NCBI GenBank assembly: GCA_903871465.1
Contig: CAIQHB010000080.1
Span: 124,001-188,000, forward strand
Source: an uncultured Methanosarcinales archaeon
GTDB taxonomy: Archaea; Halobacteriota; Methanosarcinia; Methanotrichales; Methanotrichaceae
Direction: 5' to 3'
DNA length: 64,000 nt
The notes under the pieces are model-generated. The model had not been told where the DNA came from. It searched no databases and worked only from the letters and a program-made list of their open reading frames with translations. Position 1 is the stretch's first letter, and each line of letters begins with the position of its first letter. Below, in pieces: positions 4,764 through 64,000 of this stretch. The position numbers and the translations under genes were made by a program.

Positions 4764-7229
4764 ATGGCGGAAAAAAGGATTGCGGAGCTGAAGGTAGCTG
4801 GTATGGTATGTGCCGCCTGCACGGCAGCCATCGAGAAGGCCCTCAAAAAGCTGGATGGAGTCTCCAGAGCAGAGATCAATCTGGGGACTGAGATGGCATC
4901 GGTAGAGTACGACCCGGAGAAGCTCGGGCTCATAGATATCGAAAAGGCGATCCGGGATGTCGGATACGACGTAATCGACCAGAAGGTCGTTCTGAAAATA
5001 GGCGGCATGGTCTGCGCCATGTGCGTGGGAGCGCTGGAGATCGCCCTCAAGAAACTGGACGGGGTCGTGGACGTGCGCGTGAACCTGGCAGCAGAAAAGG
5101 CCTACGTCACCTTCAATCCCAGGATGGTCGGCCTGGCTGATATGAAAAAGGCAGTCGAGGAAACGGGCTACCAGTTCCTGGGGCTTGCCGGCGATGAAGC
5201 CGGGGCCGACAGGGAAAGAGAGGCACGTGAACTGGATCTGCGGGACAAGAAGCGGCGCATCATCATCGGCTTTGCCACCAGCCTCTTTCTCATGGCTGTG
5301 ATGTATCTGCCGGTGCAGGTCATCCCCATGGGCATCCTCATGGTTGTTCCCAATTTCATGAATCTGTTCATGCTGGTGGTGTCCGCCCCGGTCTTCGTCT
5401 ATGTCAGCTATCCCATCTTCAAGGCCGCCATAAGGGCGCTGAAGAACAGGAGCCTGGACATGGATGTCATGTATGGCATGGGCATCGGCGTGGCCTACGG
5501 ATCAAGCATTCTTGGCACCTTCGGAATTGTGCTCACTCCGGACTTCATGTTCTATGAGACTGCCGTTATGCTTGCCTCCTTCCTGACGCTGGGCCGCTAT
5601 CTGGAGGCCAACGCCAAAGGCCGCACGTCTGAGGCCATCAAGAAGCTGGTGGGCCTGCAGCCCAAAAGGGCCACCATTCTGAAGGACGGTCGGGAGATCG
5701 AGGTGGCAGCGGAAGAGGTGCAGGTAGACGACCTGATCCTGGTGAAGCCGGGCGAGAAGGTTCCTGCCGATGGCCTCGTCGTCGACGGACAGAGCTATGT
5801 GGATGAGTCCATGATCACCGGGGAGCCGGTTCCGGCTCTGAAGGAAGCGGGGCAAAAGGTAGTGGGAGGCACCCTCAACAAGAACGGCGCCCTCACGTTC
5901 AAAGCCACAAGGGTGGGCAAAGACACCGTTCTGGCGTCGATCATAACCCTGGTGGAGGAAGCGCAAGGCTCGAGGCCGCCCGTGCAGAGGATTGCCGATA
6001 GAGCGGTTGCCTATTTCATTCCCACCATTCTCACCATAGCCGCGGCTGCATTTGTCTACTGGTATTTTGTAGCCCATAATACGCTGCTCTTCTCCCTGAC
6101 CGCACTCATATCCGTATTAGTAGTGGCCTGCCCCTGTGCCCTGGGGCTCGCGTCCCCGACCGCCATAACCGTCGGCATCGGCAGGGGAGCGGAGCTAGGG
6201 ATTCTCATCAAGAGCGGCGAGGCTCTGGAGGCGTCGGACAAGCTCAATGTGGTGGCTTTTGACAAGACCGGCACCCTGACGGTAGGCAGGCCGGATGTTA
6301 CAGACCTTGCCGCCTATGGAGTGGATGAGAAGGAGCTCTTGCGGCTGGCAGCATCTGCAGAGAAGCCGTCAGAGCATCCCCTGGCCGAGGCTGTCGTCCG
6401 CAAAGCAGAAGCGGAGGGGATCGATCTCGTCAATGCCACCAACTTCGAGGCCAGGCCCGGGAAAGGCGTGCTGGCAAAGGTTGGTGCAAGGAGCGTGGTG
6501 GCCGGAAACAGGATGCTCTTCCAAGAGATGAAGATCGATATCGATGACAACCTGCTCAGCAAGGCATTAGCATATGAGGAGCAGGGAAAGACAGCCATGC
6601 TGGTGGCCCTGGATGGAAAGGCCAGCGGGATTCTCGCCATCTCCGACCAGCTCAAGAGCTCGGCAGTGGAGGCGGTGGCCGAGCTGAAGAAGATGGGCCT
6701 GCAGGTAGTGATGATAACCGGCGACAATGCCCGCAGCGCTGCGGCAGTGGCAAGCCAGCTCGGCATCGATCAGGTCCTTTCCGAGGTTCTGCCCGAAGAG
6801 AAGGCCATGGAGATCAAAAGGCTGCGCCAGGCCGGGGATAGAGTAGCCTTTGTGGGAGACGGCATCAATGACGCTCCGGCGCTGGCAGAGTCGGACGTAG
6901 GCATTGCCATCGGCAGCGGCACTGATGTGGCCATAGAGACCGGCGAGATCGTTCTGATGAAAGGCGACCTGCGAGATGCCGTGGCCGCCATCCAGCTCAG
7001 CCGCAAGGTCATTTCCAGAATCAAGCTGAATATCTTCTGGGCCTTTGCCTATAACGCGGCGCTCGTTCCCGTGGCCGCAGGCGTGCTCTATCCAAATTTC
7101 GGCATAACCTTCCGGCCGGAGCTGGCGGGTCTCGCCATGGCCCTGAGCTCTGTGACCGTAATCTCGTTCTCGCTCCTGCTCAAAAAGTATATACCGCCCG
7201 CAACGCATAGGGAGCGCATTGGAGGATAA
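4764..7229 (+). CDS. copA: Copper-translocating P1B-type ATPase CopA, two heavy-metal domains
   Basis: ATP-driven copper(I) exporter in the cell membrane, 821 residues. Two N-terminal heavy-metal-associated domains carry CAAC (16-19) and CAMC (84-87). The membrane ion site is CPC (about residue 456), the phosphorylated aspartate lies in DKTGT (about 500), the HP motif in SEHPLAE, and the hinge in GDGINDAPAL (about 698). These are all the marks of a CPx ATPase of the Cu+ group. Length is normal. The next gene starts five bases after the stop and encodes a YHS-domain protein, supporting a copper-handling operon. The truncated ATPase at base 1 belongs to a different branch. Confidence 0.96.
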   Translation: MAEKRIAELKVAGMVCAACTAAIEKALKKLDGVSRAEINLGTEMASVEYDPEKLGLIDIEKAIRDVGYDVIDQKVVLKIGGMVCAMCVGALEIALKKLDGVVDVRVNLAAEKAYVTFNPRMVGLADMKKAVEETGYQFLGLAGDEAGADREREARELDLRDKKRRIIIGFATSLFLMAVMYLPVQVIPMGILMVVPNFMNLFMLVVSAPVFVYVSYPIFKAAIRALKNRSLDMDVMYGMGIGVAYGSSILGTFGIVLTPDFMFYETAVMLASFLTLGRYLEANAKGRTSEAIKKLVGLQPKRATILKDGREIEVAAEEVQVDDLILVKPGEKVPADGLVVDGQSYVDESMITGEPVPALKEAGQKVVGGTLNKNGALTFKATRVGKDTVLASIITLVEEAQGSRPPVQRIADRAVAYFIPTILTIAAAAFVYWYFVAHNTLLFSLTALISVLVVACPCALGLASPTAITVGIGRGAELGILIKSGEALEASDKLNVVAFDKTGTLTVGRPDVTDLAAYGVDEKELLRLAASAEKPSEHPLAEAVVRKAEAEGIDLVNATNFEARPGKGVLAKVGARSVVAGNRMLFQEMKIDIDDNLLSKALAYEEQGKTAMLVALDGKASGILAISDQLKSSAVEAVAELKKMGLQVVMITGDNARSAAAVASQLGIDQVLSEVLPEEKAMEIKRLRQAGDRVAFVGDGINDAPALAESDVGIAIGSGTDVAIETGEIVLMKGDLRDAVAAIQLSRKVISRIKLNIFWAFAYNAALVPVAAGVLYPNFGITFRPELAGLAMALSSVTVISFSLLLKKYIPPATHRERIGG

Positions 7230-7233
7230 AGAA

Positions 7234-7413
7234 ATGGCTATAGATCCGGTATGCAAGATGACCGTCGACGAGAAGACGGCGAAGATCAAGAGCGACTACA
7301 AGGACAAGACTTACTACTTCTGCGCCCCAGGATGCAAGAAGGCCTTTGACGAGAATCCGGCCAAGTATCTGGGCAATGAGACTGCGAAAGGATGCGGGTG
7401 CGGCTGCAGGTGA
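7234..7413 (+). CDS. Small YHS-domain metal-binding protein
   Basis: A 59-residue protein made almost only of a YHS domain: DPVCKMTVDE, then TYYFCAPGCKKAFDENPAKYL, which supplies paired cysteines for metal binding. The C-terminus adds a cysteine cluster (GCGCGC). YHS proteins are often encoded beside or fused to copper ATPases. I chose the ATG at 7234 because GGAGG at 7221-7225 sits eight bases before it; the upstream TTG at 7219 would overlap copA. Likely role: holding or delivering copper (inference). Confidence 0.88.
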   Translation: MAIDPVCKMTVDEKTAKIKSDYKDKTYYFCAPGCKKAFDENPAKYLGNETAKGCGCGCR

Positions 7414-7428
7414 AGAGCTCAGCCTCAG

Positions 7429-7440
7429 TTTTTTTTTTTT
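7429..7440 (+). terminator. Poly-T terminator after the copper operon
   Basis: Twelve T in a row sixteen bases after the YHS stop codon, a strong archaeal T-tract terminator. Confidence 0.7.
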
Positions 7441-8185
7441 GCAACCGGTATCCATAAGGAAGATTTGAGGAGCTATTTGGCGTACATACCGCCGTTATGG
7501 GTCCGAAAAATCTGTTTTTGCTATTCGTCTAAATGTCTTATACGTTAAATTTTATATTTATCATCAAGTCATGAGCTTGCACTAAGCAAATGCCAGGGGT
7601 CTTGGTAGAGGTTGCAGAAGCCACATTTAAAACCAAGACGAATTCAAAACTAAAGATATTCTTGATCAGGTCATGGCAAGAGCGGAAGGAATGTTGCGGC
7701 CGTTGCGCTTGCTAGAATGGTCCTTTGCATTTACTATCACTTGCTTATGAAACCGAGATGATTACAGGAGCCTGAGGTCAACAAACCAAAAGATATCTGT
7801 TTGCATCTCACCCATAAGCATAATTTATATCAATGGAATAATAAAATTCATTCACAAGGCGGATACTTGGTGGAAAAAGATTTGAAGGAGGGATGCGGGT
7901 GATCGCACCATCTTGTTTTATATTGATGGTTCAGGTGAAACAGTCAAGGGCCTAATTCTTCAACGTTACTTCCAGGTCGTGGTGATGTTACGGAATCAAT
8001 AGGCTATAGCAAGTCCATGAAATCAGTTTAAGGCCGTATATCAGACTTACTGTATATATCAGACTTACCGCAAAGGTGATATATTCAGCCTGCAAAACCA
8101 GCCGAAAAAGTGACATATGAGGCAGGATAGAAAAGACCGCTAATTGAACGATTCATGACTAATTCACCCTCTTAGGAAGGAAATA
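7441..8185. other. AT-rich gene-less stretch before the TIR gene
   Basis: About 745 bases without a convincing gene. Short open frames (for example 7762-7902) are no longer than chance. A 14-base direct repeat, tatatcagacttac, occurs at 8037-8050 and 8055-8068. Base composition falls compared with the copper operon and stays low through the next two genes. GGAAGGAA just before 8186 is the ribosome site of the TIR gene. Confidence 0.55.
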
Positions 8186-9412
8186 ATGCAAGATGATAAA
8201 ATTACCCCAAATAATAGCAATAATCGAGAAGTCTTTGTGTCATGGTCGGGAGAGTGGAGCAAAAGAATAGCAGCTCTTCTCATTGAATGGATACCTAAAG
8301 TCCTCTCTGTTAAGTTCTTTTTTTCTCCGCAAGATATGAGCCTCGGAAAGGTATGGGTTAGGGATTTGTCACAGCATCTTGCGACAAGCAAATTTGGGAT
8401 ATTGGTGATTACTCCTGAAAATGTAAATTCTCCCTGGGTCATATTTGAAGCTGGAGTTTTGATGAAAGATTTTGATAGCGGGAGAGTAATCCCTTATCTC
8501 GTATCTTTCGATGGAAAAGATTTGGAAACTGGGCCATTAGCCATGTTGCAGGCAACAAAGGCGGACGAAAATGGAACAATGCAACTTATTAATGCGATTC
8601 GAATTTCTCAAGATAACTCCGAAAAAGAAAAAGATGATGTTATCAAATGGCGCTTTAATCAATGTTGGAAAGAATTCTCAGAAGAGATTGATAAAATTAA
8701 TTCAAAATTTCGTAAAAAAGAGGACCTAACGACTTCTCAAGGAAGCATATGCATTTTTCAAGACCAATTGGAGACCAATCCGCATTTATATAATTATATC
8801 AATCAAGAGAAATATAAAAATATATATATGATAGAATATAGCTCCTCTACAACGAGAGAATTAATACAAAATGCTATTAAAATTAATTCTAAAGTTAATA
8901 TATATATTTTATTGCAGCATCCTAAAACAGGCAAAGAATACGATGGTCAGGAAAAAAGAATTATCGATCATTTGGAAGGTTTTTACTATATTCAAAAAGA
9001 TATGAGGAATTGCAATAATATTAAAATCCTATTCTATAAACAAAGAGCATCAGTTAGAGGAAGAAATTTTGATGATAAATTGATCAATCTCGGTTGGTAT
9101 AAATATGTATATTTTGATAGTAAATGTAATAAAGATAAAGTTGAGGGTCATAACGGAATAACGATACTTATTGGAAAAGATAATAATAATTTCAATGTGG
9201 CTAAGAATTATTTCAATGAAACTTTCAAAGAGATGTGGCTCAATGCAGATACTGTTAAAGATGTTTGCTCGTTGTACAAAGATAAAATAAGCGATTATGA
9301 GGATGAATCCTTTAAGATTTGGTGCGATCATGTCAGTATTGAAAAGAAAGATCGAATTGTTGAACTTTCCACAGACCCTTCCACAAAAGGTGATATAATT
9401 AAAATTAATTGA
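8186..9412 (+). CDS. TIR-domain protein with uncharacterised C-terminal domain
   Basis: 408 residues. The N-terminal ~170 form a bacterial/archaeal-type TIR domain: VFVSWSG at 16-22, FFFSPQDMSLG at 44-54, GILVITPENVNSPW at 71-84, and the putative catalytic glutamate E88 in IFEAG. Such TIR domains usually cleave NAD+ and act in antiphage defence; that role is inferred here. The ~220-residue C-terminal part (IYMIEYSSS, NIKILFYKQRASVRGRNFD, GHNGITILIGKD) is not one I recognise; a sensor domain with a phospholipase D-like or Rossmann-like fold is possible. The gene is clearly more AT-rich than its neighbours, with many ATA/AAA codons, suggesting transfer. It overlaps the next gene. Confidence 0.85.
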   Translation: MQDDKITPNNSNNREVFVSWSGEWSKRIAALLIEWIPKVLSVKFFFSPQDMSLGKVWVRDLSQHLATSKFGILVITPENVNSPWVIFEAGVLMKDFDSGRVIPYLVSFDGKDLETGPLAMLQATKADENGTMQLINAIRISQDNSEKEKDDVIKWRFNQCWKEFSEEIDKINSKFRKKEDLTTSQGSICIFQDQLETNPHLYNYINQEKYKNIYMIEYSSSTTRELIQNAIKINSKVNIYILLQHPKTGKEYDGQEKRIIDHLEGFYYIQKDMRNCNNIKILFYKQRASVRGRNFDDKLINLGWYKYVYFDSKCNKDKVEGHNGITILIGKDNNNFNVAKNYFNETFKEMWLNADTVKDVCSLYKDKISDYEDESFKIWCDHVSIEKKDRIVELSTDPSTKGDIIKIN

Positions 9413-10148
9413 TAAGGTAGCTTTGATAACTGGTGCCGGCCAAGGTATCGGAAGAGCGATCGCGCTCAAATTCGCAAAAGAGGGAACCTCTGTAATTGTG
9501 AATAATGTCACCGAAGACAAAGCAAAATCCGTTTCTAAGGAAATTGAGGAAATGGGTGGATCTGCAACACCTATTCAAGCCGATGTAGCTCATCAAGACG
9601 AAGTTACAAATATGGTTTCAAAAGTTATGGATGAATTTGGCAAGATTGATATCTTGGTGAATAACGCGGGAATCCAAACATCAAGTCCATTTTTGAAATT
9701 GCCGGTTGCTGAATGGGATCGCATTATAGATGTCAATTTGAAGGGTACTTTTCTATGCAGTCAACTTGTGGCAAATAATATGATAAAAAATAATTATGGA
9801 AAAATAGTTAACATAGCTTCAATCCATTACATCATTCCTAGGCTCAATAGGATTCATTATGATGTCTCAAAGGCGGGAATTGCAATAATGACTAAGGAAA
9901 TGGCGCTAGAATTGGCAAAGTATAAAATAAATGTAAATTGCATAGCGCCGGGATTTATTGCCACCGAAATGAATAAAGAAATACTTGGGTCTCCCGAGAA
10001 ACTGAATGAAAACATTTCGAGAATCCCCTGGGGAAGGATGGGAGAACCGGAGGATATAGCTAACGCGGCATTATTTCTGGTCTCGGATGAAGCAGAATAT
10101 ATTACAGGTGCAATTCTCAATGTGGATGGAGGGCTAGGATTAAAATGA
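9408..10148 (+). CDS. Short-chain dehydrogenase/reductase with non-standard start
   Basis: NAD(P)-dependent oxidoreductase of the classical SDR family (FabG or glucose-dehydrogenase-like). Cofactor motif TGAGQGIG, structural NNAG, catalytic Ser (NIASIH) and YDVSK, and the C-terminal ITGAILNVDGG end are all present. There is no ATG or GTG: the frame opens after a stop at 9396-9398 and the homologous N-terminus (IDKVALITG) would need ATT at 9408. The first usual start is TTG at 9423, which would cut into the first beta strand. A good GGTGAT box lies at 9388-9393. The ATT overlaps the TGA of the TIR gene, so the two are coupled. Substrate unknown. Confidence 0.82.
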   Translation: MDKVALITGAGQGIGRAIALKFAKEGTSVIVNNVTEDKAKSVSKEIEEMGGSATPIQADVAHQDEVTNMVSKVMDEFGKIDILVNNAGIQTSSPFLKLPVAEWDRIIDVNLKGTFLCSQLVANNMIKNNYGKIVNIASIHYIIPRLNRIHYDVSKAGIAIMTKEMALELAKYKINVNCIAPGFIATEMNKEILGSPEKLNENISRIPWGRMGEPEDIANAALFLVSDEAEYITGAILNVDGGLGLK

Positions 10149-10343
10149 TATTCGAGTAATTCAAGACAAATTCTCCAACCACAGAGTGCCCAAAGCTTAT
10201 AATGTACGTGCAAAGACGATCAAGAGGTTTATGCCTCAGTCATAATCTCTAAAGTCACACAATTCAGCGAACAGCCATTCAAAAAAAGGCCCCAATTCCC
10301 GCAAATATTTATCCAATCAAAGCCCTTCTAAAATCTCGATATC

Positions 10344-11792
10344 ATGGATAAATTCGATCTCATCGTAATCGGCTCCGGAGCAGGGGCGCACGTCGCTTCC
10401 CAAGCCGCGCGTTCCGGGTTGCGGGTCGCTCTGGTGGACAGAGGCCCCACCGGTGGCACCTGCCTGAACACCGGCTGCATCCCTTCCAAGCTGCTCATCT
10501 ATCCGGCAGACGTCATCAGAACCATCCAGGAGGCAAGAGCCGTAGGCGTTTACGCCAGCATAGACAAGATCGATTTTACAAAGATTATGAGCCGCATGCA
10601 CAAGGTCGTGGACAGGACGCGCACCGACCTCGAAGCGGCGCTTGCTGCCAAGAAGGGCCTGACCTACTACCAGGAGAAGGCGGAGTTTGTCGGGGACTAT
10701 CTTTTGAAAGTGGGAGAAAGGACGATCACGGCCCCCAAATTTGTGATCGCCACAGGCGCCCGCTCGCTGGTTCCGCCTATCCCGGGACTGGAGGAGACCG
10801 GCTTCCTTGACAACGTCAGTCTCCTCAAACTGGAGGCAGCCCCAAAAAGCCTGATCATCATCGGAGCAGGCTACATCGGCTGCGAGTTTGGCCACTTCTT
10901 CTCGGCCATGGGAACGGACGTGACCCTTCTCGGTCGCAGCCCGCAGGTGCTCAAAGGCGAGGACCCGGAGGCATCAGGACTGCTGGGAAAAGTGCTTTCC
11001 CAGTACTGCCGGGTGATCACCGGCCAGGAGGTCGTTTCGGTTGAGCGAAAAGGCGATAAGAAGATCGTCTCGGCCAAAGATGTCAAAGAAGGCAAGATAC
11101 AACAGTTCGAGGCGGACGAGATTCTCCTGGCATCCGGCCGCAGATCCAATGCCGATATCCTCCACCCCGAGAAGACGGGCGTGGAGACCGACAAGCACGG
11201 CTGGATCAAGGTGAACGAATACCTGGAAACCGGAAAAAAGGACATCTGGGCCATAGGAGATGCCACCGGCAAGCACATGTTCCGCCACACTGCCAACTAT
11301 GAGTCGAATGTGGTGATACACAATCTCCTGGAGGCCCCAAAAAAGGGTGACAGGGAAAAGGTCGACTACCACGCCGTTCCTTATGCCATCTTCACCCATC
11401 CGCAGATCGCAGGCGTGGGCATGAAAGAGGCAGATGCCCTGGCAGCAGGCCTGCGGGTTTTGGTGGGTCGGGCCAGGTACATGGACACGGCCAAAGGCGT
11501 GGCCATGGCCGAGGATAACGGCTTCGTGAAAGTCATCCTGGAGGAAGAGACGGGTCGAATCCTGGGCGCGACTGTGGTGGGCTCCAGCGCATCAGAGCTC
11601 GTGCAGCAGGTGGTCTACCTCATGAACACCGAAGACCAGGATCTCAAGCCGGTTACAAGATCGCAGGTCATCCACCCAACCATCAATGAGGTGCTGGTGA
11701 AGGCTTTCTCGGAGCTGCAGAAGCCTGATACGCCGGACCGGAATTGCTGGATGATTGCCAAGGAATTCATCAAGTGCTCTCCAGCTGAATAG
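10344..11792 (+). CDS. FAD-dependent pyridine nucleotide-disulfide oxidoreductase (dihydrolipoamide dehydrogenase type)
   Basis: 482-residue flavoprotein that passes electrons between NAD(P)H and a redox disulfide. It has the FAD motif GSGAGAHVA near the N-terminus, the active-site disulfide GGTCLNTGC, the second nucleotide motif GAGYIGCEF, the ATG and AIGDA flavin motifs, and the C-terminal HPTINE that supplies the catalytic His-Glu pair from the partner subunit. This matches dihydrolipoamide dehydrogenases, but no lipoyl-dependent 2-oxoacid dehydrogenase gene is near, so the real substrate is open (another disulfide, or a metal ion). It stands alone, with base composition back to normal after the AT-rich island. 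Confidence 0.88.
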   Translation: MDKFDLIVIGSGAGAHVASQAARSGLRVALVDRGPTGGTCLNTGCIPSKLLIYPADVIRTIQEARAVGVYASIDKIDFTKIMSRMHKVVDRTRTDLEAALAAKKGLTYYQEKAEFVGDYLLKVGERTITAPKFVIATGARSLVPPIPGLEETGFLDNVSLLKLEAAPKSLIIIGAGYIGCEFGHFFSAMGTDVTLLGRSPQVLKGEDPEASGLLGKVLSQYCRVITGQEVVSVERKGDKKIVSAKDVKEGKIQQFEADEILLASGRRSNADILHPEKTGVETDKHGWIKVNEYLETGKKDIWAIGDATGKHMFRHTANYESNVVIHNLLEAPKKGDREKVDYHAVPYAIFTHPQIAGVGMKEADALAAGLRVLVGRARYMDTAKGVAMAEDNGFVKVILEEETGRILGATVVGSSASELVQQVVYLMNTEDQDLKPVTRSQVIHPTINEVLVKAFSELQKPDTPDRNCWMIAKEFIKCSPAE

Positions 11793-11805
11793 AATATGGG
11801 AGATG

Positions 11806-11840
11806 GGAAATAGGAAATAGGAAATAGGAAATAGGAAATA
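11806..11840 (+). repeat. Five tandem heptamers GGAAATA
   Basis: Five perfect copies of ggaaata in a row, 14 bases after the preceding stop codon. The array is too short and has no spacers, so it is not CRISPR. Such a tract can vary in copy number. Confidence 0.85.
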
Positions 11841-12003
11841 ATGCAGAGATGCAGAAAGAAATGCATCTGTAGCCAAAAAAAAATGCGCATAAAGGACTGT
11901 TGGACTGGATCTGTATTAACGGTATAAGCCTGCTGGCCTCATAGATCCAGCCCGGCCAGGCTCTAAAGATTTCTCATATTTATTGTGTGATTATAAAACC
12001 GGC

Positions 12004-12120
12004 TCAATTGTCGTTATGATCCTCCATCAAGTGAAATTTCAGTTCTTCTTTGGACTCAAAGTTCATTCGACAGACCTTACATTTGAATTTGCCTTCTCTA
12101 TTAGATCCGGTGCCAGCCAT
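12004..12120 (-). CDS. C2H2 zinc-finger microprotein, 38 aa
   Basis: A small gene missed by length filters. It encodes a single classical C2H2 finger: FKCKVCRMNF, twelve residues between the second Cys and the first His, then H-LMED-H near the C-terminus. The start ATG at 12120 is preceded by GAGGTG about six bases upstream on the minus strand, a good archaeal ribosome site. A basic N-terminus precedes the finger. Single-finger proteins are known in archaea as nucleic-acid or protein binding factors; the target here is unknown. It is divergent from the rubredoxin-FprA operon. Confidence 0.75.
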   Translation of the reverse strand: MAGTGSNREGKFKCKVCRMNFESKEELKFHLMEDHNDN

Positions 12121-12186
12121 TTATAACACCTCGAATCGATATCATAATTGAAACTCATTATTATTTAGCTTTTTTGTTGCCCTCAG

Positions 12187-12214
12187 AACGCTCCCAGAAC
12201 GCCGCCAGAGCGTT
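12187..12214. other. Inverted repeat, possible hairpin
   Basis: aacgctc at 12187-12193 pairs perfectly with gagcgtt at 12208-12214 across a 14-base loop. It lies in the divergent spacer between the zinc-finger gene and rubredoxin. It may be a regulator site or chance. The rest of 12215-12449 shows a TATA-like ctttatactt near 12374 and no gene. Confidence 0.4.
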
Positions 12215-12449
12215 GGGTCCCGTGGCTGATGTTCTAATTCTAACAATATGAGAAATGATCTGCTTTGCGGATACGGTTTAGGGATAGGTATGTGGAACTG
12301 TTTATGGACCCGGTTATGCCCCTGGACTGACCTGAACCACTAAATTCATTCCCGGCTAACAGTTGCGATCTAGCTTTATACTTTGCAGACCACACCAGAA
12401 TAAAATATTGAATAAAAGCAAGGATAAAAGCAAGAGGGAAGTTATTCGC

Positions 12450-12614
12450 ATGGCTCACAAATATCAGTGTACTACTTGCGGTTACATTTACGATCCCGAG
12501 AAGGGAGATCCAGACTCGGGAATTGCCCCTAATACGCCCTTCGAGGCCCTGCCCGACGACTGGAGCTGCCCGCAATGCGGCTCTGCAAAAGATAGTTTCA
12601 AAGAGCTTGCCTGA
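12450..12614 (+). CDS. Rubredoxin
   Basis: A 54-residue electron carrier with one iron bound by four cysteines: [16 protein letters not shown] and [13 protein letters not shown]. Length and sequence are textbook. The frame is open upstream, but the ATG at 12450 gives the standard rubredoxin start. It lies 31 bases before the flavodiiron protein gene, its likely electron acceptor, as in many anaerobes. Confidence 0.95.
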
Positions 12615-12645
12615 ACTTGGAAGAAATCCGAAATGGAGGAAAAAA

Positions 12646-13833
12646 TTGACACTAACAAGAGAGATTAAGCCGGGAGTGCTCTCGGTCGGAGCAATAGACT
12701 GGGACCGCAGACTCTTTGATGCCCTGATTCACCTGCCCGATGGAACCAGCTACAATTCTTACCTGATCCAAGGCCAGGATAAGACTGCACTCATCGATGC
12801 CGTGGACGCAACCATGGCCGATGTGCTGATAGATAACCTGAAAGCACTGGACATTAAAAAGATAGACTACATCATAGCCCAGCACGCCGAGCAGGACCAC
12901 TCCGGAAGCCTGAAACGGCTCGTTGAGATTTATCCCGACGCCAAGGTGACGGGCTCTGCCAAATGCCTGGAGCTGCTCAATGAGTTCGACCTCGTGAGCA
13001 AGGAGAGAATGCAGGAGGTGAAAGACGGCGAAGTGATCGATCTGGGCGGCAAGACTCTGCAGTTCATCAGCGCTCCCTGGGTGCACTGGCCGGACACCAT
13101 ATTCACTTATCTTGCGGAAGAGCGGGTCCTCTTCACCTGCGATTTTCTGGGCTCGCATCTGGCCACCAGCGACCTCTATGCCACGGACGAAGCTACCGTC
13201 TATAAAGCGGCTAAGAGATATTACGCCGAGATCATGATGCCCTTCCGGCAGCTCGTAAAGAAACACCTGGAGAGGATCTCGACCCTCCAAATTGACATCA
13301 TCGCCCCCAGTCACGGACCGGCTTACAATAGGCCTGAATTCATATTGGGCAGTTACCGGGATTGGGCTTCGGACAATGTTAAGAACCAGGTGGTTCTGCC
13401 CTTTGTCTCCATGCACGGCGCCACAAGGACCATGTCGGACTACTTCGTTGATGCTCTTATCTCCAGAGGAATCGGGGTTTTGCGATTTGATCTCACCAAC
13501 AGCGACACAGGCGACCTGGCAGAGGCACTGGTGGACGCAGCAACCGTAGTCATAGGCACACCTACAATTCTTGCCGGTGCTCATCCCCTGGCACTTTATG
13601 CCGCCATCCTCGCCAATGCGCTGCGGCCGAAAACAAGGTACGCCTCCATCATCGGCTCTTTTGGCTGGGGAGGCAAGATGCTGGAGCAGATAACACTCGC
13701 CCTGCCCAATCTGAAGCTGCAATTCCTCGATCCTGTGGTGGCCAAAGGGCACCCCAAAGAGGCTGATTTCAGGGCCCTCGACCGGCTGGCGGACGAGATC
13801 CTGGCGAAGCACCGGGAGCTTAAGATCGTTTGA
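12646..13833 (+). CDS. fprA: Flavodiiron protein FprA (F420H2 oxidase type)
   Basis: Reduces oxygen to water at a diiron site to protect the anaerobe; in methanogens the electron donor is F420H2. 395 residues. The N-terminal metallo-beta-lactamase-like domain has the iron ligands HAEQDH (80-85), H in APWVHW, D in CDFLGSH and H in PSHGP; the C-terminal flavodoxin domain starts near SMHGATRTMSDYF and includes the GSFGWGG loop. The open frame begins earlier, but a TTG at 12646 preceded by GGAGG (12635-12639) matches the family N-terminus. Rubredoxin just upstream and a TSUP transporter just downstream suggest one oxidative-stress operon. Confidence 0.94.
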   Translation: MTLTREIKPGVLSVGAIDWDRRLFDALIHLPDGTSYNSYLIQGQDKTALIDAVDATMADVLIDNLKALDIKKIDYIIAQHAEQDHSGSLKRLVEIYPDAKVTGSAKCLELLNEFDLVSKERMQEVKDGEVIDLGGKTLQFISAPWVHWPDTIFTYLAEERVLFTCDFLGSHLATSDLYATDEATVYKAAKRYYAEIMMPFRQLVKKHLERISTLQIDIIAPSHGPAYNRPEFILGSYRDWASDNVKNQVVLPFVSMHGATRTMSDYFVDALISRGIGVLRFDLTNSDTGDLAEALVDAATVVIGTPTILAGAHPLALYAAILANALRPKTRYASIIGSFGWGGKMLEQITLALPNLKLQFLDPVVAKGHPKEADFRALDRLADEILAKHRELKIV

Positions 13834-61488: not shown

Positions 61489-61617
61489 AATAATCGGTAG
61501 CAGATAATCGAAACAAAGAGATTACGGAAGGAAAACACATAGTCACAAGCACAAGGAGAACCACGAAAATGACGTCGGATTCTTGTGACCCGCGCACGAA
61601 TCCGCACTGAATGGTGT

Positions 61618-61966
61618 ACCTAGAGGCGGAGCTTCATTATAATGGCCGCCTCGCCATCGGAGTAGTATGCAGGGACTATGCCGATCATCTGGAATCCCAG
61701 CGTGGAATAGAGCGCCTGTGCCTTTTTATTGCCAACTCTGACCTCAAGAGTGGCACTCAGCGCGCCCATATTCCGGAAGATCTTCAGAATACCCATCATG
61801 AGCCTCATGCCGATGCCGCGGCACTGGTAGCCCGGCTTTACTGCCAGCCAGAAGACCCTGCACTCGAAGGGCGCATGCTTGAATCCGAGGATAAAGCCAG
61901 CCACCTTTCCACCTACTTCGGCGACAAGAGTGCTGCCGGGATGGTATTCATAAAGAGCTGTAAAGT
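61618..61966 (-). pseudogene. 5'-truncated copy of a GNAT acetyltransferase gene
   Basis: Nearly base-for-base copy of the 3' part of the GNAT gene at 62699-63046 (offset 1079). It keeps the acetyl-CoA loop (CRGIGMRLM) and the C-terminus, but the similarity stops at about 61966, next to a stop codon (taa) upstream, so the front third is gone. A leftover ATG at 61904 would give a 94-residue fragment. Product probably inactive. Confidence 0.85.
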
Positions 61967-62043
61967 TGAGGAGAGATTAATTGAAGGATTTTAATAAGCT
62001 CCGACATCGAATATAAATACTAAAAAGACAAGACGAAGGAGAT

Positions 62044-62698: not shown

Positions 62699-63199
62699 CT
62701 AGAGGCGAAGCTTCATTATGATGGCCGCCTCGCCATCGGAATAGTAAGATGGGACGATGCCGATCATCTGAAATCCCAGCGTGGAATAGAGCGCCTGGGC
62801 CTTTTTATTGCTAACTCTGACCTCAAGAGTGGCCCTTAGCGCGCCCATATTCCGGAAGATCTTCAGAATACCCAGCATGAGCCTCATGCCGATGCCGCGG
62901 CACTGGTAGCCCGGCTTTACTGCCAGCCAGAAGACCCTGCACTCGAAGGGCGCATGCTTGAATCCGAGGATAAAGCCAGCCACCTTTCCGCCTACTTCGG
63001 CGACGAGAGTACTGCCGGGATGGTATTCATAGAAGGCCGCAAAGATGTTCGGATCGTACCCTCCGAAGACCTCACTGTCGATCTCCAGGGCTGCCTCCAG
63101 GTCGTCAGGTACAAGTCTCCTGATTATGACGGCATCACTGTGGATTGCCTCGCCAATCCCGTCCGTGAGCCGCCTCTGAATCTGTTCCTCTGGCCACAT
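62699..63199 (-). CDS. GNAT family N-acetyltransferase, intact copy
   Basis: 166 residues resembling RimI-like acetyltransferases: IIRRLVPDDLEAALEID at the front, the acetyl-CoA loop QCRGIGMRLM, and the core KKAQALYSTLGFQMIGI. The 3' two-thirds are duplicated at 61618. Target of acetylation (protein N-terminus or small amine) unknown. ATG 63199 chosen. Confidence 0.88.
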   Translation of the reverse strand: MWPEEQIQRRLTDGIGEAIHSDAVIIRRLVPDDLEAALEIDSEVFGGYDPNIFAAFYEYHPGSTLVAEVGGKVAGFILGFKHAPFECRVFWLAVKPGYQCRGIGMRLMLGILKIFRNMGALRATLEVRVSNKKAQALYSTLGFQMIGIVPSYYSDGEAAIIMKLRL

Positions 63200-63316
63200 T
63201 CCATCTTTGCCAGGGATTTTTCAACGGAAATAGTTTTTCCGACGGGAATTGAGAAAGGACTAAGGAGGCTTTCAGTTGATTTTATGGCCACTAATATAAA
63301 TAATCTGAAAAGTATT

Positions 63317-64000
63317 CTATTTCCCAACCGCCAGCGTCAGATTCCCGTGTGGCATCACCAGCATCCTGGCATCATTGCCCTGCCTCTCCCTCGCCACCGT
63401 TAGGGCCTCTTCCAGAGTTTTAGCAGGAGTCATGAAGCACATCTCAGCTTCTTCCCTGGGCAACGACGACACCAGTATCAAGTGATGCTGCAGGGACTCC
63501 CTGGCCAGGAATGCCGCCTTATGGCCTCCGAACTCGTACTCCCGTCCAAAGCGCTCCCAGCAATCTTCAGCAGATTTGGCTTCACATGCCCAGCGCTCGA
63601 ACACCGGATGGCCCAACCCCTCGCAGCACTCCGCCAGAAGGATGATTGTACCACCGGGCAGGGCAGCATTCTTGGCATTGTCCAGAGCCTTCTGTGCCTG
63701 GAAGAGATTGAGGTCCTTGGGCCTGCCGCCGGCGCAGGTCACAACGATCTCCGCAGGATCAACAGCGCACTTATACATCTGATCCACGGCTGAGGCTCCG
63801 CTTCGGTGCGCCTGGATAAAGTCGCCCGCAACCGATAAGACGATCTCTTTCCTGCTGTTCAAAACCGTATTCAAGATAAAATCAAGGCCTGCGACCTTTG
63901 CGGCGTCTTCCATGTCCAGGCGAACCGGGCTGTCCAGCCGCCCTGTAACTGCAGCCGGATCTCTCATCAGCTCATGGTTTTTGACTACTGACTGCTCTGA
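63317..64000 (-). CDS. LarA-family (nickel-dependent lactate racemase-like) protein, partial
   Basis: The frame stays open to the right edge, so the N-terminus is missing; 227 residues of the C-terminal part are visible. Marks: LDFILNTVLN, VAGDFIQAHRSG, EIVVTCAGGRPKDLNLFQAQKAL, and ILLAECCEGLGHP. LarA-like proteins use a nickel-pincer cofactor to racemise 2-hydroxyacids. LarB/C/E partner genes are not visible here. Confidence 0.87.
   Translation of the reverse strand, partial: SEQSVVKNHELMRDPAAVTGRLDSPVRLDMEDAAKVAGLDFILNTVLNSRKEIVLSVAGDFIQAHRSGASAVDQMYKCAVDPAEIVVTCAGGRPKDLNLFQAQKALDNAKNAALPGGTIILLAECCEGLGHPVFERWACEAKSAEDCWERFGREYEFGGHKAAFLARESLQHHLILVSSLPREEAEMCFMTPAKTLEEALTVARERQGNDARMLVMPHGNLTLAVGK

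Follow-up and report, generated by a model that had tools for sequence, protein, structure and literature searches.

A TIR protein of a known phage and prophage defence family with an undescribed C-terminal module, at a variable spot of an archaeal chromosome

In Thoeris, a TIR protein makes a nucleotide messenger for a separate effector, and the system needs a ThsB-type TIR with an adjoining ThsA. In E. coli, the three genes of the AC1 locus confer protection against phages lambda, LF82_P8 and P2, and a nucleotide messenger has been suggested for this locus (Rousset et al. 2022, PMC9122126). The TIR protein of the latter (P2_AC1) gives a value of 2.7e-118 with the PADLOC TIR-TM model, and the same locus also holds a 1TM and a 2TM partner. 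No paper was found in the literature under the DefenseFinder-style name of the AC1 system.

The locus described here comes from a 3.1 Mb archaeal genome of the family to which Methanosaeta sp. PtaB.Bin039 belongs, and was analysed within a stretch of 64,000 nucleotides (the window, to which all positions refer). On its left are the genes of a CopA-type ATPase and a YHS protein (4764-7413, plus strand), in an order kept in three relatives (G017, G020 and G021), and on its right those of an Lpd-type flavoprotein, a rubredoxin and an FprA-type flavoprotein (10344-13833, plus strand), kept in several relatives; these names were read from the sequence, with profile tests for some of them. Between the two flanks, the gene of a 408-residue TIR protein (TIR-CTD; 8186-9412, plus strand), with the Shine-Dalgarno-like AGGAAGGA just 5' of its start, is followed by the open frame of a short-chain dehydrogenase (SDR; 9399-10148, plus strand). 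Both are real genes. A perfect 14-base direct repeat, TATATCAGACTTAC, with copies 18 bases apart, occupies positions 8037-8068 just 5' of the TIR gene.

The TIR domain, trailing helix included (residues ~15-184; 8228-8737, plus strand), matches TIR_2 of Pfam (PF13676; E 3e-8, 34.6 bits against a cut-off of 28), the PADLOC TIR-TM model (PDLC03016; E 1e-38 over residues 15-188, covering only model positions 2-174 of 293) and the PHROG family phrog_13899 (E 2.7e-39, residues 16-231). AlphaFold returned a high-confidence TIR model for residues ~11-184, and in fold searches of the PDB the modelled part resembles the solved TIR domains of SPARTA TIR-APAZ, SARM1 and plant proteins; sugar isomerases, which appeared in the first of these searches as long, low-quality matches beside the real TIR matches, were ignored. 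From viral contigs, 65 relatives were fetched, of ~234-345 residues, mostly single genes in phages and with diverse C-termini. Glu88, Trp84 and Gly90 are invariant in all 43 of those included in an alignment, the Glu, a residue that marks TIRs of the NADase type, standing four positions after the conserved Trp as in NAD-cleaving TIR enzymes. The putative NAD-cleaving Glu88 named by the first-pass annotation is thus upheld, and its sequence places the protein in a large TIR family that is frequent in the DNA of phages and prophages. The short prophage and archaeal members (~230-345 residues; L002-L005, L026-L030 and L042-L106) share the TIR domain at 28-39% identity but end in shorter C-terminal parts, which are not related to that of TIR-CTD. 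Compared as DNA with phages, the region as a whole gave no match. The same genome contains four more TIR_2 matches, in larger or different proteins (G000:C25:980, C9:44690, C9:50700 and C35:35175).

Compared with the described systems, the TIR domain is 35% identical over ~155 residues to the AC1 TIR of a P2-like phage, with which it shares the PADLOC and PHROG families and the invariant motifs, Glu88 included. The two differ in setting and in architecture: the AC1 TIR is a phage protein with 1TM and 2TM partner genes and a C-terminal domain unrelated to the present one, whereas TIR-CTD is encoded on an archaeal chromosome with neither partner nearby. A tblastn search with both partners found neither in the 64-kb window, and AC1-type 1TM and 2TM homologues were likewise absent from the flanks of the fetched TIR loci. 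With respect to Thoeris, TIR-CTD gives a weak and partial ThsB match (E 5e-5), and no ThsA effector gene was found beside it, the flanks consisting of the remains of an IS110 element, CopA/YHS, the SDR and Lpd.

The C-terminal domain (CTD) comprises residues ~184-408, i.e. ~225 residues, and, as had been claimed from the first reading, it is unrecognised: no match was found in Pfam, PADLOC, NCBIfam or the PDB sequences, and the PHROG match stops at residue 231. Two AlphaFold runs gave weak alpha/beta models of low confidence over the CTD (mean pLDDT 49.7 for the CTD alone), and a fold search of the PDB with such a weak model as query gave no match at E <= 0.001. A PLD-like fold, prompted by the order of strands and helices and marked in PLDc_2 proteins by an HxK motif, was not supported, as hhalign against 30 PLDc_2 relatives gave a probability of 0.9% and an alignment out of register, with a score within the shuffle range. 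An apparent alignment with an Enterococcus plasmid TIR was not trusted either. The profile and structure searches that the first-pass annotation had proposed for this C-terminus led to no known non-defence family, and sequence searches to one unnamed 2TM protein.

That single relative is a 269-residue protein of Methanosaeta sp. PtaB.Bin039 (genome G031; L006/L024), 33-36% identical over ~175 residues (E about 1e-23), with which the conserved part of the CTD is shared (residues ~184-372; 8735-9301, plus strand). It has two hydrophobic segments (about residues 20-47 and 51-72) followed by the CTD, so that two membrane helices stand in place of the TIR domain; its gene lies 3' of peptide-binding-protein-like genes, with no adjoining TIR or SDR gene and no recognised defence partner there. 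This copy was the only convincing one among 393 genomes of the phylum and 238 of the class, other matches (E 0.003-0.1) being short pieces or containing stops. None was found in plasmids, phages or viral contigs, and a scan of the genome collection returned the same relative, with automatic patterns poor enough for bacterial homologues to be missed. A constant C-terminal domain behind a changing N-terminal effector usually points to a module for sensing or regulation, and because the N-terminal effector differs between the two proteins while the CTD stays, the best reading of the sequences is that the CTD acts as a modular sensor/regulator, which would control TIR in the present protein and a membrane effector in PtaB.Bin039, on the strength of one swap. 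More tentatively, and at somewhat below even odds, it may represent a new family of immune sensors or regulators swapped between NAD-cleaving TIR and two-helix membrane effectors in methanogenic archaea. Many phage-borne TIRs carry C-terminal parts without an assigned role, and a CTD that also occurs behind membrane helices offers a direct handle on how such effectors switch on.

The TIR protein is a new variant in a known phage and prophage TIR defence family, with an undescribed C-terminal module. By taking these data into account, TIR-CTD is best explained as a horizontally acquired, probably single-gene immune effector regulated by its CTD, with the SDR outside the mechanism, a reading to which a probability of roughly 0.6 is assigned. 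The gene would have been acquired from the phage and prophage TIR family that includes the P2_AC1 TIR; once infection is sensed, the TIR domain would presumably cleave NAD, with depletion of NAD or production of a nucleotide signal as the outcome; the CTD would sense or regulate, controlling whichever effector precedes it (the TIR domain here, the two membrane helices in PtaB.Bin039), and the SDR would have come with the island or landed beside the TIR gene. In favour of this explanation are the family matches to the tested AC1 TIR, Glu88, the CTD found behind 2TM, the foreign composition described below and the adjoining IS110 remains; against it, the CTD swap is seen in one relative and the variable spot in three, and the AC1 system needs, or at least was assayed with, two membrane partners, which this locus lacks. 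Rather than acting alone, the TIR domain might supply a nucleotide messenger to a membrane effector encoded at another place in the genome, along the lines shown for Thoeris and suggested for AC1, but this is unlikely. Membership of the same family as AC1, with its 1TM and 2TM genes, and the occurrence of the CTD itself on a 2TM protein would agree with such a scheme, but the AC1-type partners are missing from the window and from the fetched TIR loci, and the relatives are mostly single genes in phages.

The two genes differ from their surroundings as first described: their GC content is 32.4% (TIR gene) and 38.8% (SDR), against roughly 45-59% for the other 34 genes of the window, and their codon-usage distances are the largest of the 36 genes tested. 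The stretch 5' of the TIR gene, initially read as AT-rich and gene-less, is AT-rich but not blank. Positions 7582-7919 (plus strand) are ~74% identical in DNA to an element of a relative (G004) present there in at least eight nearly unchanged copies, an intact copy of which encodes a 439-residue transposase with the Pfam domains Transposase_20 and DEDD_Tnp_IS110. Because the 3' end of this transposase aligns there with an internal stop (last 73 residues, at 7687-7899; tblastn E 2e-15), the gap is largely a relic, the decayed 3' end of an IS110-family transposase. The region as originally delimited, from 7441, covers this relic, and the genes proper begin at 8186.

The spot between copA-YHS and lpd (7414-10343 in the window) was compared in three informative relatives (loci L148:1451-8674, L150:6474-7450 and L152). 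The corresponding gap of G021 contains genes for a HEPN protein and a nucleotidyltransferase, and that of G020, 7.2 kb long, encodes among others a GmrSD_N protein and a Schlafen AlbA_2/HATPase protein. In G017 a distance of about 0.6 kb separates CopA-YHS from Lpd, and both the TIR gene and the SDR are missing. Because sister species hold HEPN/nucleotidyltransferase or GmrSD/AlbA_2 genes there, the spot is variable and defence-like, and TIR-CTD thus sits where the content elsewhere is of defence or toxin-antitoxin type. The defence context proposed at the outset is supported by this and by family membership, and further archaeal defence genes of this methanogen family may be worth seeking in the copA/YHS-lpd gap. 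A decaying island whose TIR protein has lost its function appears very improbable: the IS110 relic adjoins, the start of the SDR is missing or altered and TIR-CTD occurs in only one sampled genome, but its frame runs unbroken through 408 codons from a good start site, and almost every family-invariant residue is kept.

The SDR, announced as an NAD(P)-dependent dehydrogenase, is confirmed as such an enzyme by its profile match (adh_short_C2 of Pfam, E 3e-71). With the motifs TGxxxGIG, NNAG and YxxxK all present in the translation, it is by its sequence an intact classical SDR of the FabG/glucose 1-dehydrogenase type, 46-48% identical to archaeal and bacterial enzymes of this type, which is common in relatives and plasmids. 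It differs from these classical SDRs in adjoining a TIR gene and in lacking an ordinary start before the first strand. The frame is open from 9399 (LKLIDKVALITG...), and the first ATG, GTG or TTG is the TTG at 9423 (residue 9), inside the first Rossmann strand. Of the few-base gene overlap originally reported, it holds that the open frames overlap, by 14 bases, whereas the first standard start falls ten bases past the TIR stop. This arrangement would be explained equally by a start codon of non-standard type, by a change at the start, by a +1 frameshift out of the TIR frame or by an error of assembly. More remote again is the idea that TIR-CTD and the SDR are, or recently were, one fused protein, joined by a +1 frameshift or separated by a one-base difference, real or due to assembly: the frame is open to 9399 within the TIR frame, and a start at 9423 would miss part of the first strand, but the Shine-Dalgarno-like GGTGAT at 9389-9394 is as expected for a separate gene start, and no fused homologue was found in ~117 other TIR loci.

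The pairing itself was surveyed by tblastn of the SDR and of the CTD against the flanks of these loci, namely those of 18 close or weak TIR relatives in archaeal genomes (about 1.5 kb), of 65 viral TIR genes (up to 3 kb) and of 34 generic TIR genes, four others of the host genome included. A related SDR was found within 1.5-3 kb in none of the ~117, a count in which very divergent SDRs or neighbours past contig ends could be missed, and the CTD was absent from the same flanks. With no related SDR adjoining any other of the TIR loci surveyed, the SDR is most likely a passenger and an accidental neighbour of the TIR gene. The first-pass annotation had proposed a functional TIR-SDR unit and a count of such adjacencies elsewhere, and had held that the link would be accidental if no other genome had the pair and the C-terminus matched a known non-defence family; the unit is not borne out, the pair occurring in no other sampled genome, while the C-terminus has no known non-defence match. 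Least credible of all is a true two-gene unit, translationally coupled, in which the SDR would detect or replenish NAD(P)(H) or work on the TIR product, for although the genes adjoin on the same strand with abutting frames, are both AT-rich with unusual codon use and encode an SDR with intact active-site motifs, the SDR type is common, the CTD relative of PtaB.Bin039 lacks an SDR beside it, and no precedent for a TIR with an SDR was found in the literature. If real, such a pair would link NAD cleavage to a dehydrogenase; the survey argues against it. Elsewhere in the class, relatives of the SDR (L020-L023) adjoin an NAD-synthetase-like gene, and no TIR link was seen there.

Elsewhere in the window, two open reading frames (61611-61994 and 62954-63403) contain a near-identical peptide (MLESEDKASHLS.YFGD), which suggests a partial gene duplication; the second of them is antisense to a GNAT-like frame.
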